From Lacticaseibacillus parakribbianus (GTDB lineage: Bacteria; Bacillota; Bacilli; Lactobacillales; Lactobacillaceae), in NCBI RefSeq assembly GCF_025490915.1, contig NZ_JANQBA010000003.1, forward strand, positions 96,624 to 160,623: 64,000 nt of DNA, given 5' to 3'. The notes beneath the pieces were generated by a model. It was not told the origin of the DNA. It did not search any database and saw nothing but the letters and a program-made list of their open reading frames with translations. Shown piece after piece: positions 1-37,869 of the stretch (the stretch's first letter is position 1; every line of letters starts with the position of its first letter). The translations under genes were made by a program, and so were the position numbers.

Positions 1-245
1 GGCGTCGCCGAGCGAACTTAGCCAGCCGGCTAGCGTAAGGCTGGCGCTTGGGCCTGCCCTTGGCCCGAGTGGCGGCCTTAGCTGGACGCACTGGCGTTGC
101 TCGGCAGAGCCCGTTTAGAGCGTGACCCGGGGCGGGGTTAGCGGAGCGGTCAGCGTAGGCTTGGGATTTGAAGCGGTCCTTGCTTCAAATTCCGAGCCTA
201 GCAGACCGCATCCGCGTTGCCCCGGGGAACGCGTTTGGGGCGTCG
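1..245 (+). repeat. R1 hairpin repeat, two tandem units
   Basis: Two adjacent copies of a roughly 120-nt intergenic element, about 1-118 and 119-245, share the block TTAGC-CGG-TAGCGTA, a central hairpin and a right edge reading CGTTT. The second unit closes with CCCGGGGC near 125 and GCCCCGGG near 219, and its inner hairpin pairs GATTTGAAGC with GCTTCAAATTC. The first unit uses different bases for the same helices (GCCGAGC with GCTCGGC). No coding gene is supported here. Confidence 0.8.
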
Positions 246-250
246 CCGCA

Positions 251-467
251 GGCTCCGGGGTTCGGGCAAGGCGAACTGCGCGGCCGGTCTTTGCCCGTTG
301 GGCTCCGACCTAAAGCCGGAGCCGACCGTCGCCTACGGCTCCTCTGGTCGTCTTCGGCTTTGCCGGAATCAGCCACGCGTGAGCCTCGCCCAACCCGCGA
401 GTCTCACGGGCGGCTGATTCTTTCGCGGCTCGCCTTGCCCGAACCCCTCCACCTGCTACCATGTGGA
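251..467 (+). repeat. R2 multi-helix structured element, copy 1
   Basis: Outer helix P1 pairs 257-274 with 430-447 in 18 perfect base pairs. P2 pairs 312-320 with 353-361. P3 pairs 366-374 and 378-383 with 412-420 and 403-408, and ends in a tip pairing CTCGC with GCGAG. P4 pairs 448-452 with 463-467. A second copy at 3136-3353 keeps the loops and junctions but changes the bases in every helix. It may be a non-coding RNA, a leader element or a mobile structured DNA; function is unknown. Confidence 0.75.
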
Positions 468-737
468 ACGAGGCGGCCGATGTCCCGTAGCCACACTCGC
501 GCGGCCGCTTTGCGCTCACCCAAAGGAACCGGCAGCTAAACTGGCCCATTCCAAAGTGTCACGGGCGGTGCTGCCGCGGCCCCACCTAAAGCGCGAACCT
601 CACCGTTCATCTCTAGCAATACTCCGAAGTTCTTCATCCGCTACCTCAAGCTTCAGGAGCAGGGGTCGCAGCTGACCATTCCATCCGTCCGACGCCGCCG
701 CGTTTCACGCCCCTTTTCCATCCCCGCCTCAGACGCG
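468..737. other. Intergenic, nothing recognised
   Basis: GC-rich sequence between R2 copy 1 and the promoter of the hydrolase gene. Reading frames here lack ribosome binding sites or family resemblance, so none is called. Confidence 0.5.
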
Positions 738-765
738 TACAATGGGGACAAACGGAGGCATTGCC

Positions 766-1431
766 ATGGATATCACAGTCGGCACCATCTCAATTCACTA
801 CACCAAGGCCGGACAGGGCCACCCGCTGCTGCTCTTGCACGGCAACGGTGAGGACCACACCCTGTTCGATTCGCTGGTGCCGCTGCTCGCCCCGCACTTC
901 ACCGTGTATGCGCTGGACACCCGCGGCCACGGCCAAAGCTCGAGCGGCAAGCTCGACTACCGACTGTTCGCCCAGGACGTGCTGGGTTTCGTTCAGGCGC
1001 TAGGCGTCGAGCCGGTGATTCTGCTCGGCTTCTCCGACGGCGGCATCACCGGGCTGATCGCCGCCAGCAGCGAACCGGCGGCGGTGCGGCGGCTGATTGT
1101 GGCCGGGGCGAACCTGACGCCGCTGGGCGTTCGCTGGGCCGCCTACTGGGCCACCCGCGTCCAGAATTGGAAGCACCGCAGTCCCCTTTTGACGCTGATG
1201 CTCGAGCAGCCGCACATCACCCGGCAGATGCTGAATAATATTCAGGCGCCGACGCTGGTCATGGCCGGCCAGCACGACGTCATTCGGCCAAGCGAGACGG
1301 CGCGAATCGTCCGGGAGATTCCGCAGGCCCGGGGTATCACGGTTCCCGGCGCCTCGCACAGCAGCTACATCAAGGACGGGCCGACGCTGTACGGCCTGAT
1401 TGCCCCGTTCCTCCAGCCGCTGGCACTGTGA
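766..1431 (+). CDS. Alpha/beta hydrolase
   Basis: A 221-residue soluble hydrolase with a complete alpha/beta-hydrolase triad: Ser90 in the elbow GFSDGG, Asp171 in AGQHD and His198 in GASH. The oxyanion-loop motif LLHGNG lies at residues 24-29. The ATG at 766 is chosen because GGAGG at 754-758 precedes it by 7 nt; an upstream in-frame ATG at 742 has no such site and overlaps the likely -10 TACAAT (738-743). The substrate cannot be named; this family includes esterases, lactonases and C-C hydrolases. It appears monocistronic. Confidence 0.85.
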   Translation: MDITVGTISIHYTKAGQGHPLLLLHGNGEDHTLFDSLVPLLAPHFTVYALDTRGHGQSSSGKLDYRLFAQDVLGFVQALGVEPVILLGFSDGGITGLIAASSEPAAVRRLIVAGANLTPLGVRWAAYWATRVQNWKHRSPLLTLMLEQPHITRQMLNNIQAPTLVMAGQHDVIRPSETARIVREIPQARGITVPGASHSSYIKDGPTLYGLIAPFLQPLAL

Positions 1432-1457
1432 ATATTTTCTGTATTTTTTTAAAATGC

Positions 1458-1486
1458 TTGCATATTTCCTCGATTGGGTTTATATT
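1458..1486 (+). promoter_or_regulatory. Promoter of SBP-permease gene
   Basis: TTGCAT (1458-1463), 17-nt spacer, TATATT (1481-1486), followed by an AT-rich start region and the ribosome binding site AGGGGAG before the ATG at 1520. Confidence 0.7.
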
Positions 1487-1519
1487 CAATAAAAATTCAA
1501 TCGCAGGGGAGTTCTCGGT

Positions 1520-2965
1520 ATGAAGAAGTTTTTCAAGTGGCTGTTACCGCTGATCGCAATGCTTGCGCTCGGCTTCACCCAATCCAATCAGCAGGTCCAA
1601 GCGGCGAGCGGCAGCCGCCTGACCGCCATCAAGTCACGCGGTTACCTGGTCGTCGGCCTGTCTGCCGACTACGCGCCGCTGGAGTTCCACGCCACCGTCA
1701 AGGGCGACGACACCATCGTCGGCGCCGACGTGTCCTTGGCCAAGCAGATTGCCAAAGACGCCGGCGTGAAGCTGCAGATTAAGGAAATGGGGTTCGACGC
1801 CTTAATCGGGGCCCTCAAGACGGGTAAGGTCGACATGGTCATCTCCGGCATGAGCAAGACGCCGGAACGTGCCAAGCAAGTCGACTTCTCCGAACCCTAC
1901 ATGTACGAAAAGCAGATCGTCGTGATCCGCAAAGCCGACAAGGCCAAGTACAAGAACGTCGCCGACTTCTCCGGCGCCAAGGTCGGGGCCCAAAAGCAGA
2001 CCACCCAAGAGGCGATTGCCAAGGCCCAGCTGCCAGGCGCCAAGATTCAAAGCCTGCAAAAGGCCAACGACGTGGTCGCCCAGGTCTCCTACAACAAGCT
2101 AGACGCCGGCGTCATGTCCAGCATCATCGCCGGGGCCTACGTTCAAAAGAACAAGAGCCTGATGATGGTGGATCCGCACTTCGCCACCGCCGCCTCGCCG
2201 ACCGTCGTCGCCTTGCCGAAGGGCGACACCGCCCTGACGGCGCAGGTCAACAAGACCATCAAGAAGGTCAAGTCGCAGAAGCTTTGGGCCAAGTGGCTCG
2301 ACGCGGCCTACACGCTGCAGAACCAAAGCGACGGTTTTTGGGCCAAGTACGGGAGCTTTTTCGTCAAAGGCGCGGTTAACACGCTGGTCTTCGCGCTGTT
2401 GACCGTCGTCGCCGGCACCGTGATCGGCACCTTCCTGGCGCTGATGCGTCGCTCCAAGCTCTGGATTCTCAAGGCGATCGCCGTGGTCTACGTCGAGTTC
2501 ATCCGCGGCACCCCGCTGATGGTCCAGGCCTTCATCGTCTTCTTCGGAACCCAGGTGCTGGGCATCAGCCTCTCCGCCTTCGCGGCCGGCGCGATTGCCA
2601 TGGGCATCAACTCCGGCGCTTACGTCGCCGAAATCATCCGCTCCGGCCTGAACTCCGTGCCGATCGGCCAGACCGAGGCCGCCCGGAGCCTGGGCCTGTC
2701 CAACGGCCAGACCCTGAAGTCGGTCGTCTTGCCACAAGCGGTCAAAAACATCTGGCCGGCGCTTGGTAACGAGTTCGTCACCGACATCAAGGAATCCTCC
2801 GTGCTGTCCGTCATCGGCGCCACGGAGCTGATGTTCGAAGGCTCCACCGTCCAAGGCGCCTCGTTCCAGCCGTTCTTCCCGATGATGATCGTGGCCTTGA
2901 TCTACTTCGCCATGACCTTCGTCCTGACCCGCCTGCTGGGCTTGGTCGAGCGGCGGTTCAACTAG
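1520..2965 (+). CDS. Amino-acid ABC transporter, substrate-binding/permease fusion
   Basis: A 481-residue protein with a signal peptide (about 1-29, ending VQA), a polar-amino-acid binding domain (about 33-265, with GLSADYAPLEF and the SGMSKTPERAKQVDFS region) and a HisM/GlnP-type permease domain (about 275-480). The EAA-like loop includes EAARSLGL. Fusions of this kind are usual in Lactobacillales, where an ATPase subunit completes the importer. No ATPase gene is adjacent, so it must use one encoded elsewhere, possibly the one at 25517. Glutamine, glutamate, arginine or a related amino acid is plausible, but specificity is not visible. Confidence 0.88.
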   Translation: MKKFFKWLLPLIAMLALGFTQSNQQVQAASGSRLTAIKSRGYLVVGLSADYAPLEFHATVKGDDTIVGADVSLAKQIAKDAGVKLQIKEMGFDALIGALKTGKVDMVISGMSKTPERAKQVDFSEPYMYEKQIVVIRKADKAKYKNVADFSGAKVGAQKQTTQEAIAKAQLPGAKIQSLQKANDVVAQVSYNKLDAGVMSSIIAGAYVQKNKSLMMVDPHFATAASPTVVALPKGDTALTAQVNKTIKKVKSQKLWAKWLDAAYTLQNQSDGFWAKYGSFFVKGAVNTLVFALLTVVAGTVIGTFLALMRRSKLWILKAIAVVYVEFIRGTPLMVQAFIVFFGTQVLGISLSAFAAGAIAMGINSGAYVAEIIRSGLNSVPIGQTEAARSLGLSNGQTLKSVVLPQAVKNIWPALGNEFVTDIKESSVLSVIGATELMFEGSTVQGASFQPFFPMMIVALIYFAMTFVLTRLLGLVERRFN

Positions 2966-3137
2966 GACCAGGGCGGAAGCCGGCGCAGTTAGCAGGACGG
3001 CTAGCGTAGGGCTGGTGCTTGAGGCCCGGGCTTGGCCTCGAGTGCCGGCCCTAGCTGGACGTTCCTGCGTTGCCGGCTGGAGCCCGACGAACCAAGGCGG
3101 AAGGTCGCGTAGTTAGCGGGACGCATAGCCTAGCCGG
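2966..3137 (+). repeat. R1 repeat, one full and one truncated unit
   Basis: A complete R1 unit starts directly after the TAG stop of the transporter gene and ends near 3092. Its helices include GCCGGC near both ends and GCAGGA with TTCCTGC. A second unit starts near 3097, keeps the block around TAGTTAGCGGGACG, and breaks off at 3136 where R2 copy 2 begins. Confidence 0.75.
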
Positions 3138-3353
3138 CTCCGGGTCAGGGGCGGGTCGGGCTGCGCGGCCGGTTTCCGCCCGTTGGGCTCCAACCTAAAA
3201 TTCGAGCCACGCCGCTGCCTACGGCCTCGTGCCTGTCTCGAATTTTGCCGGGATTAGCCAAGCGCAAGCCTCGCCCAACCCGCGAGTCTTGCGGTCGGCT
3301 AATCCTTTCGCGGCCCGGACCCGCCCCTGACCCTACGCTTGCGACCTCGTAGG
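3136..3353 (+). repeat. R2 multi-helix structured element, copy 2
   Basis: P1 pairs 3142-3157 with 3318-3333 (16 perfect base pairs). P2 pairs 3197-3206 with 3237-3246 (10 base pairs). P3 pairs 3251-3259 and 3263-3268 with 3297-3305 and 3288-3293. P4 pairs 3334-3337 with 3348-3351. The 19-nt loop at 3269-3287 is identical to 384-402 in copy 1, while P1 and P2 differ almost completely in sequence. The element lies 165 nt upstream of the peptidase gene, so a leader role is possible but unproven. Confidence 0.75.
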
Positions 3354-3518
3354 ACAAAACCAACCCAGCACGACGCAAATGTAGTCTGACCACTTCAGTC
3401 GGAATCGGCAAGCGTCAAACGCCCTTTCGTGCCACAGCCATCAGACAACAGCACCATCGTCATCACCACCCAACGCGGCCGACGCCTGTCGGTCGCGTTG
3501 GCGTCTACGGAGGAAGCC

Positions 3519-4193
3519 ATGGATTACTTACTGACATCGGGCGGCATCCAAAACGCCGCCGAACGCGCCGCTTTGGTGGCGCTTTTGGGTAAGCCGATCG
3601 AGGCGGCCAACGCCTTGTGCATCCCCACCGCGGCCTACGCGACGCCGGAGAGCTCGCCGCAAGGGGTCTGGCGCTTCGTCGCCGGCCAAAGCTCCGCCCC
3701 CTTGGTCGGGCTGGGCTGGCACAGCATCGGGGTGCTTGAGCTGACCGCCTTGCCGGATCTGCCAGCCGAACGCTGGCGGCGCTGGCTTGAGGCGGCCGAC
3801 GCGCTGCTGGTCGACGGCGGCGACGCGGTGTATCTCGCCTACTGCCTGCGTCGAGCCGGGCTGGCCGACCTGCTGCCGACCCTGGCTCACAAGGTGTGGG
3901 TCGGCATCTCGGCCGGCAGCATGGTGGTGGCGCCGCGCATCGGGCAGTTCTTCACCACCTGGGCCCCGCCCAGCGGCCCGACCGACGCGGGACTGGGGTG
4001 GCTAGACCTCGCGATTTTTCCCCACCTCAACTTGTTTGAGGAAAACAACCTGACCAACGCCCGGGCCTGGGTTGAAGACCTCGGCCGGCCGGGCTACGTC
4101 ATCGACGAGCAAACCGCCATCCAGGTTCGCGGCGGCGCGGTGTCCGTGGTGTCCGAGGGCGAGTGGCATTTGCTGCGGCCGGGCTCGCTTTAA
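3519..4193 (+). CDS. Peptidase E-like protein (family S51)
   Basis: A 224-residue class-I glutamine-amidotransferase-like fold of the S51 family, whose known members are aspartyl dipeptidases or cyanophycinase relatives. Visible features are the N-terminus LLTSGGIQN typical of the family, GGDAVYL (100-106), the nucleophile elbow GISAGS with Ser131, and FPH with His169. The ATG at 3519 is preferred because GGAGG (3509-3513) precedes it and the protein then begins as family members do; an upstream GTG at 3429 would add 30 residues of uncharacteristic sequence. Substrate not certain. Confidence 0.8.
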   Translation: MDYLLTSGGIQNAAERAALVALLGKPIEAANALCIPTAAYATPESSPQGVWRFVAGQSSAPLVGLGWHSIGVLELTALPDLPAERWRRWLEAADALLVDGGDAVYLAYCLRRAGLADLLPTLAHKVWVGISAGSMVVAPRIGQFFTTWAPPSGPTDAGLGWLDLAIFPHLNLFEENNLTNARAWVEDLGRPGYVIDEQTAIQVRGGAVSVVSEGEWHLLRPGSL

Positions 4194-23617: not shown

Positions 23618-23649
23618 CATGGTCAGACATTTAAATAAACCACCAAGAA

Positions 23650-23808
23650 ATAGAGGTCGCGGGTGGTGACGACAGCTGATGAGGGCCTAACCCGATGAGT
23701 CAGCCGTAAGCATCCCCGCCGAAACTCACCAAGCGATTAGGCGCTTGGCGGGTTGGGACAGTGGGCGAAAGCCGCTGGACTGTCGAAGCGATTGCTTCGG
23801 AGCGCTAT
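23650..23808 (+). ncRNA. Lysine riboswitch (L-box) aptamer
   Basis: The leader carries the conserved L-box blocks in order: GAGGTCGCG at the 5' side, GATGAG, GCCGAA, TTGGGACAG with CTGGACTGTC, and the closing GGAGCGCTATG. Strong hairpins (AAGCG with CGCTT; GGGCGAAAGCC) separate them. It is followed by an intrinsic terminator, so binding of lysine is expected to end transcription before the transporter genes. This gives the best evidence for the transporter's substrate. Confidence 0.9.
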
Positions 23809-23834
23809 GATTCTTGCGAATTATGCAGAAATCC

Positions 23835-26260: not shown

Positions 26261-26870
26261 GCCGCGGCGGGGTTAGCGGGTCGGCTAGCGCGGCGCCGGC
26301 TCTTGAAGCGGGTTGTGCTTCGAGGGCCGGTGCGAGCAGGCCGGACCTGCGTTGCCGCGGGGAACGCGTTTAAAGCGTGAGCCGCGGCGGATTTAGCGGA
26401 ACGGATAGCCTAGCCGTGGCGCTTGGGACCGGGCCTTGGTCCCGAGGGCCGCGGCGTCGCTAGCCGCTTCCGCGTTGCCGCGAGGAACGCGTTTAAAGCG
26501 TGAACCGCGGCGGGGTTAGCAGGTCGGCTAGCGCGGCGCCGGCTCTTGAAGCGGGTTGTGCTTCGAGGACCGGTGCGAGCAGGCCGGACCTGCGTTGCCG
26601 CGGGGAACGCGTTTAGATAGAGCGTGAGCCGCGGCGGGGTTAGCAGGTCGGCTAGCGCGGCACCGACTCTTGAAGCGGGTTGTGCTTCGAGGGCCGGTGC
26701 GAGCAGGCCGGACCTGCGTTGCCGCGGGGAACGCGTTTAAAGCGTGAACCGCGGCGGGGTTAGCGGAACGGCTAGCCTAGCCGTGGCGCTTGGGACCGGG
26801 CCTTGGTCCCGAGGGCCGCGGCGTCGCTAGCCGCTTCCGCGTTGCCGCGGGGAACGCGTTTAAAGCGTGA
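26252..26870 (+). repeat. R1 repeat array, five units plus a fragment
   Basis: Units start at 26254, 26374, 26497, 26621, 26741 and a fragment at 26864. Two types alternate in the order A-B-A-A-B. Type A pairs GCAGGTC with GACCTGC and GAAGC with GCTTC. Type B pairs GCGGAA with TTCCGC and GGGACC with GGTCCC. Outer blocks (GCGGCGGGGTTAGC and GTTGCCGCGGGGAACGCG) are nearly invariant. Each unit can fold into one long hairpin. Confidence 0.9.
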
Positions 26871-37569: not shown

Positions 37570-37869
37570 GGTGGGCAAGCGCGTTGCCAGCGCTACGCTA
37601 ATCGGTTCGCTAAATTCGCTCGGCTCCACGCTCTAAACGCGTTCCCCGAGGCATCGCCGGAGCGGCTAGCTAAGGCCAGACACTGAGCCACGGCCCGGCT
37701 CAATGTCCAGCCTTGCGCTACCCGTCCGGCTAAACGCCTTGCTCCGCCCTCTAAACGCGTTCCCCCAGGCAACGCGGGAGCGGCTAGCTACGCACCAGCG
37801 CCGGGGCATAACCCGCCCCAACGCTGGTGCTAGGCTACCCGTCCCGCTAAACCCGCCTCGGGTCACGCT
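37570..37869 (-). repeat. R1 repeat array, minus orientation
   Basis: Two full units (about 37749-37869 and 37633-37748) and a fragment (37570-37632), reading with the minus strand. The first begins TAGAGCGTGACCC, so that the TAG is the stop codon of the purine permease. Inner helices differ from the 26-kb array, for example GGTGCTAG side against CACCAGCG side. Confidence 0.8.

Follow-up and report, generated by a model that had tools for sequence, protein, structure and literature searches.

In the analysed window (64,000 nucleotides of Lacticaseibacillus parakribbianus), two copies of an element named R2 were found to share a covarying four-helix fold, which in another genome (G315) forms one arm of a non-coding transposable unit and whose distant relative is a streptococcal family of Rfam. 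The reading preferred here, with a probability of about two in three, is that a non-coding, non-autonomous mobile element, mobilised in trans, has R2 as one of its arms, with this arm acting as RNA and the fold making insertions tolerable.

The literature searched contained no published description of an R2 element in Lactobacillaceae, and the name Lacto-rpt was not found in it. MITEs, bcr-like structured repeats and Rfam SSRC8 are kinds already known. New, as far as the searches go, are the Lactobacillaceae family, the transposon anatomy with two arms, the relation to SSRC8_2 and the terminator pairs. If the reading is true, an sRNA already catalogued in streptococci and a lactobacillar structure missing from the catalogues are copies of a single dispersed element, and the annotation of such "sRNA genes" should change. 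The family offers hundreds of naturally occurring variants of a single RNA-like fold, and R2 insertions are datable against relatives. Because of these variants, the datable insertions and the food bacteria that carry them, it becomes possible to test why so elaborate a fold is kept by a transposable element.

Fold and covariation of R2

The coordinates of both window copies and of an adjoining repeat (R1) are shown in Table 1.

Table 1. Positions of the R2 arms, their helices and the R1 repeats in the window
Feature	Position	Strand	Remark
R2 copy 1, whole folded arm	248-457	probable RNA sense minus (by SSRC8_2 homology)	folds on either strand; model match 271-434
Copy 1 P1, first side	257-274	no strand	18 bp with 430-447
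Copy 1 P1, second side	430-447	no strand	partner of 257-274
Copy 1 inner P1 and junction helix	276-284	no strand	276-280 with 424-428; 281-284 with 362-365
Copy 1 P2 hairpin	286-310	no strand	
Copy 1 P3 hairpin	312-361	no strand	
Copy 1 P4 hairpin, CTCGC/GCGAG tip	366-420	no strand	
R2 copy 2, whole folded arm	3133-3345	probable RNA sense minus	R2 at same site in sister species G011 (L092)
Copy 2 P1, first side	3142-3157	no strand	16 bp with 3318-3333
Copy 2 P2 hairpin	3171-3195	no strand	
Copy 2 P3 hairpin	3197-3246	no strand	
Copy 2 P4 hairpin	3251-3305	no strand	
R1 repeat places	17, 137, 2988, 3112; 26272-26759; 37597-37834 (-); 42647, 42770 (-)		

A sequence-only reading had claimed one shared set of helices for 251-467 and 3136-3353, and this was confirmed by the folds, which were alike in both copies. 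Folding energies were -138.8 kcal/mol for copy 1 and -134.0 kcal/mol for copy 2 against shuffled means near -94.6, giving z scores of -9.76 and -8.21, respectively, with 0 of 200 shuffles equally good. P1 was perfect in both copies (18 pairs in copy 1, 16 in copy 2) and differed in sequence as described, and P2, P3, P4 and the CTCGC/GCGAG tip matched the earlier description in both. The mean column identity of copy 1 and copy 2 was 86%, which for two sequences corresponds to about 72% identical columns. GCCCGTTGGGCTCC and the P3 loop were constant between the two window copies but vary across the R2 family.

The R2 model built from eight copies showed compensatory change in 28 of 54 pairs. A model-based search of related genomes, which had been proposed as a check, found further copies, and the covarying helices were borne out on an alignment (A4) of 114 copies from seven genomes. 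In A4, 92.1% of 5932 cells paired, 45 of the 54 helix pairs showed changes on both sides, and 1517 cells were changed on both sides compared with 462 +/- 20 after shuffling (0/500), counts that favour the structure, since the model that guided the alignment already contained it. Single-sequence folds are free of this alignment bias, and when the partner was slid by 1-3 columns as a control, pairing was only 35-45%.

Single mismatches were common in old orthologous copies. Twelve orthologous pairs of L. suibinensis (G024) and its sister species (G025) showed 152 single and 17 double changes with both directions counted (about 9 to 1), the pair L102/L121 being omitted for want of orthology support from the flanks; RNase P, in comparisons of at least 90% identity, gave 1 single to 1.7 doubles, in pairs chosen in a different way. 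Because singles so far outnumber doubles when set against RNase P, old R2 copies look weakly constrained, and such weak constraint on fixed copies fits an element selected while moving rather than a host gene. At one site occupied in four species of genus g24 (L303, L305, L306 and L308), P4 was a plain long hairpin and the usual internal mismatch was absent.

Distribution and transposon anatomy

The genome of the window (G000) contained 12 full-length R2 copies at E <= 3e-14, of 17 matches at E <= 0.1. R2 was present in 10 of 30 Lacticaseibacillus genomes (E <= 0.01), with at least 11 matches in 8 genomes; other labelled species of this genus are L. kribbianus (G011), L. manihotivorans (G012) and L. 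porcinae (G018). Matches were found in 47 of 301 genomes and 10 of 40 genera of Lactobacillaceae in a survey with strict filters, in which the best nine candidates were scored per genome. Five genomes that were counted contained at least 144 (G315, from the best 150 candidates scored), 87, 38, 30 and 9 matches. The class-wide search gave 4 of 299 genomes, namely that of the window and three from a single genus in another family, here called streptococcus-like for carrying Rfam's Streptococcus family SSRC8_2. The G315 unit had no match in plasmids or phages, and window copy 1 had none in plasmids.

R2 copies were intergenic and lay in either orientation. Among 118 groups with simple ORF calls, single copies were ++ in 23, -- in 30, +- in 12 and -+ in 10, and a fixed orientation to the downstream gene, as for a cis-regulatory leader or riboswitch, was not found in these groups. 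Close R2 pairs converged (27 among the pairs listed, 149-307 bp apart), also in other genera, and no close divergent pair was among the pairs listed. Comparison of flanks showed that sister species share R2 sites (G000 with G011, G024 with G025). One of them is the site of window copy 2, which is occupied in G011, and this copy is therefore old. At one site, judged from positions, each of the two species gave a match to a single arm, left in one and right in the other (L112, L129). Contig C23 (233 kb of 2.82 Mb) held 7 of the 12 full-length copies of G000 (p about 1e-5), and placement was uneven in G011, where 5 of 30 copies lay on contig C1 (1.54 Mb; p about 2e-5).

In G315, R2 was the left arm of a non-coding unit of about 540 bp, the right arm of which was another structured arm. 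The 14-bp TIR CTAAAGGTTGAAAG had 132 occurrences with up to 1 mismatch, and the reversed control had 0. Among 24 distinct units, selected for having both ends, target duplications were exact at 7-9 bp in 19 and matched at 7 of 8 in 4, while 1 was without an exact one; two of the 24, chosen by their ends and not by R2, were short (293 and 319 bp). The flanks of one G315 insertion, about 830-900 bp apart in G315 itself, were separated by 49-294 bp in 17 of 20 congeners, too little to hold the unit, which is thus absent there in these 17; in the remaining 3 the flanks were not adjacent. The one site that was aligned showed patchy similarity. TIRs, a short target duplication and sites without the insertion in relatives, which characterise MITE-type elements, were all found for G315, the last of them for one unit. 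As for an autonomous relative, the 100 of 132 TIR places listed contained no two opposed TIRs at a distance of about 1-3 kb.

Seven copies in G009 shared a unit estimated at about 0.9 kb and bounded by CTGTCCGGCAGCG and its complement. Five of the seven had both ends clear, and a target duplication was recognised in none of the seven. The TIRs differ between G315 and G009. G253 contained two elements, each pairing an arm of one subtype with an arm of a second subtype. PF01797 (Y1/RAYT) had no match in G000, G009, G011 and G012, which are four of the eight genomes with at least 11 copies, and the analysis turned up no enzyme that would mobilise R2. R2 is mobile in G315, and would be so in the other genomes. 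At the window copies neither a TIR nor a target duplication could be made out, by eye or in a further analysis, and neither copy showed a second arm; they would be single-arm survivors of two-armed insertions.

SSRC8_2, probable RNA strand and paired terminators

The sequence-only reading knew no named family for R2 and implied the strand on which it was read, and neither point was supported. There is a distant named relative, Rfam RF02616 (SSRC8_2), and all 8 overlaps had it on the strand complementary to R2. Three class-wide R2 matches overlapped SSRC8_2 matches of 38.1, 27.2 and 34.6 bits on the opposite strand (L476-L478), and five further loci overlapping R2 had SSRC8_2 at 48.6-56.6 bits, all below the curated cut-off (72 bits). 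When the R2 model was run on 28 streptococcus-like loci, 8 matched at E <= 1, all opposite SSRC8_2, and 20 gave no match, so that wherever both models overlapped at one place the strand was consistent. Positions 152-209 of the Rfam model correspond to P3-P2 of the R2 complement. L477 contained two adjoining SSRC8_2 matches in the same direction (1329-1423 and 1540-1638), one of which (27 bits) overlapped R2.

SSRC8_2 was dispersed in the streptococcus-like genus: at E <= 0.01 it matched 46 of 59 genomes, 9 of which exceeded the cut-off, with up to at least 26 matches per genome; locus L479 carried two SSRC8 families of Rfam on opposite strands. At the window R2 copies no Rfam family reached its cut-off and nothing plausible appeared up to E 5 in window 1-3600, nor up to E 0.5 on 20 R2 loci of other genera; these searches returned two or three microRNA-type chance matches. 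SSRC8_2 itself had no match at the window copies or at the Lactobacillaceae R2 copies searched.

In the published description of SSRC8 from S. pyogenes, a 3' probe detected it on Northern blots, circular RACE determined its ends, and an intrinsic terminator closes it; its listed homologues lie within nucleotides 142-250, its abundance drops in late stationary phase, and it is missing from the sRNAs that this study had in common with two other S. pyogenes studies (PMC3675131). A list of intergenic Rfam-annotated sRNAs, as given in the excerpt of another report, is without SSRC8 (PMC6431027). The SSRC8_2 model (281 positions) would be the mapped SSRC8 transcript, as the numbering fits. The RNA sense of R2 is probably the minus strand of the window. 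The earlier contrast between an RNA and a transposon end was not supported: the distant relative is a reported RNA, and R2 is an arm inside a transposable element in G315.

Wobble pairs on the read strand, with each pair-type counted once in five R2 sets, were 58 GU and 78 AC (p 0.10). The GU:AC counts by pair-type were 22:29 for the G315 left arm, 42:43 for the G315 right arm and 40:27 for the RNase P sense strand, and the R2 counts differed from RNase P with a Fisher p of 0.026. The wobble test leans weakly towards the complement, without significance. Cell-wise counts placed GU above AC in both arms with the RNAalifold structure; a Watson-Crick-only consensus fold gave 34 GU and 90 AC in the left arm (p 5e-7) and 89 GU and 63 AC in the right arm, and G253 showed 7 GU and 21 AC for type I and 9 and 11 for type II. 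Three pairs that many copies had inherited accounted for nearly half of the AC cells of the G315 left arm. Because the cell-wise counts are contradictory and inflated by inherited pairs, they are no proof of strand, and another wobble comparison (odds ratio 0.58, p 4e-6) shares the weakness of inheritance.

A model-spanning match was present in 11 of 25 SSRC8_2 loci (L479-L503), of which L486 was dropped because a contig end truncates it, leaving 10. Similar host terminator hairpins were found at both ends in 9 of the 10 loci (scores 17-32), with L496, a short match, scoring 7; the cross-locus control (n=90) had a mean of 8.7, a standard deviation of 2.5 and a maximum of 21, and L479 (17) and L485 (19) fell inside its range. 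The paired hairpin copies were direct or inverted. An open frame on the same strand ended 3-74 bp upstream in 8 of the 10 loci, and none was found for L479 and L485. In contrast to these paired streptococcal terminators, G315 showed a short duplication only. The paired terminators point to a mode of insertion that spares gene ends.

Proposed mechanism, alternatives and neighbouring repeats

A transposase acting in trans would move the element. Neighbouring genes may read into the arm, and the read-through transcript would then carry the arm, acting as RNA. The compact fold beside terminators may shield or end transcripts, which would make the insertion tolerable, and copies so tolerated would persist as long-lived intergenic residents. 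RNA has been reported for one streptococcal relative only, and in Lactobacillaceae the R2 arm would act as RNA. An extended form, in which R2 and SSRC8 make up one Lactobacillales superfamily of RNA-bearing mobile elements whose structured RNA helps to move them, for instance through recognition of intrinsic-terminator hairpins, together with an enzyme acting in trans, is considered unlikely.

It is conceivable, if doubtful, that the arms act only as DNA, as single-stranded or cruciform ends bound by a transposase like the hairpins of REP and IS200/IS605, with no RNA role. Their place inside a TIR element in G315 agrees with this, as do G-U pairs that are not above A-C on the read strand (58:78), unlike those of the RNase P sense strand (40:27). 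To our knowledge, however, the ends of known DDE transposons need less than an elaborate four-helix fold, and the Y1 family is missing from half of the copy-rich genomes, as stated above. The report of the streptococcal relative as an RNA, in the sections that describe it, also argues against a DNA-only role (PMC3675131).

A host-owned regulatory RNA or cis-element turned multi-copy, with each arm regulating its neighbour gene, is quite improbable; it would suit the persistence of copies at orthologous sites and the described fall of SSRC8 in late stationary phase (PMC3675131), but both orientations to neighbours are common among the 118 groups, target duplications are present in G315, and 254 of 301 family genomes were without a match under strict filters. 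Least credible is quasi-palindrome correction, in which arm-to-arm copying in replication keeps the helices and there is no selection for the fold. The 17 doubles beside 152 singles in the 12 G024/G025 pairs exceed a rough expectation of 1 to 3 doubles under independence, as such copying would produce, but it would erase mismatches that the arms retain (GCC opposite GTC), RNase P has more doubles per single, and the loops are conserved.

Several known systems resemble R2 in part. MITEs are, like the R2 unit, non-coding and present in many copies with TIRs and short target duplications, but R2 arms have four elaborate covarying helices across genera, and TIRs that differ in two genomes. REP/BIME sequences, and REPINs with RAYT, are inverted pairs of palindromic units of 20-40 nt in intergenic DNA, whereas an R2 arm has about 200 nt; a REP/RAYT (Y1) system was rejected because PF01797 is missing from four of the eight copy-rich genomes. 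Group IIC introns insert at intrinsic terminators, as is suggested for the streptococcal copies, but there was no Rfam intron match at R2, R2 is too short, and two terminator copies are present. A group II intron, suggested by GUGCG at one end, was likewise rejected, as it had no Rfam match and domain V was absent by eye. SSRC8_2 is dispersed like R2, and a segment of its model matches the complement of P3-P2; it differs in that a pair of similar terminators tends to flank its full-span streptococcal copies and that Rfam lists it as an sRNA gene. The bcr1 repeat and its relatives in Bacillus cereus are described, in the parts of the reports that concern them, as short mobile intergenic repeats with many copies, and bcr1 is listed with a conserved fold (PMC6542083, PMC2267715). 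Compared by description only, bcr mobility is tied to TTTAT motifs, whereas R2 in G315 has TIRs, 7-9-bp duplications and two arms.

A second repeat, R1, forms short arrays of hairpins that are about 120 bp long and carry a motif resembling GTTAGCRGGACGGCTAGC; it adjoins both R2 copies of the window. Pattern scans covered at least 119 genome-contig stretches and 16 viral ones; 96 of 135 were scored with model R1, and matches better than E 0.01 were obtained only in Lacticaseibacillus records. The P2 loop was enlarged in some R2 copies (L006, the minus-strand copy of L007, and L004) with the R2 fold intact, and in L006 and L007 the enlargement looks like an R1 hairpin. L006 also contained, at about 1870-1945, 9-bp GAGCTAATC units repeated in tandem, with an open frame downstream of them. 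Elsewhere in the window, a lysine riboswitch was found at 23643-23815 (77 bits).
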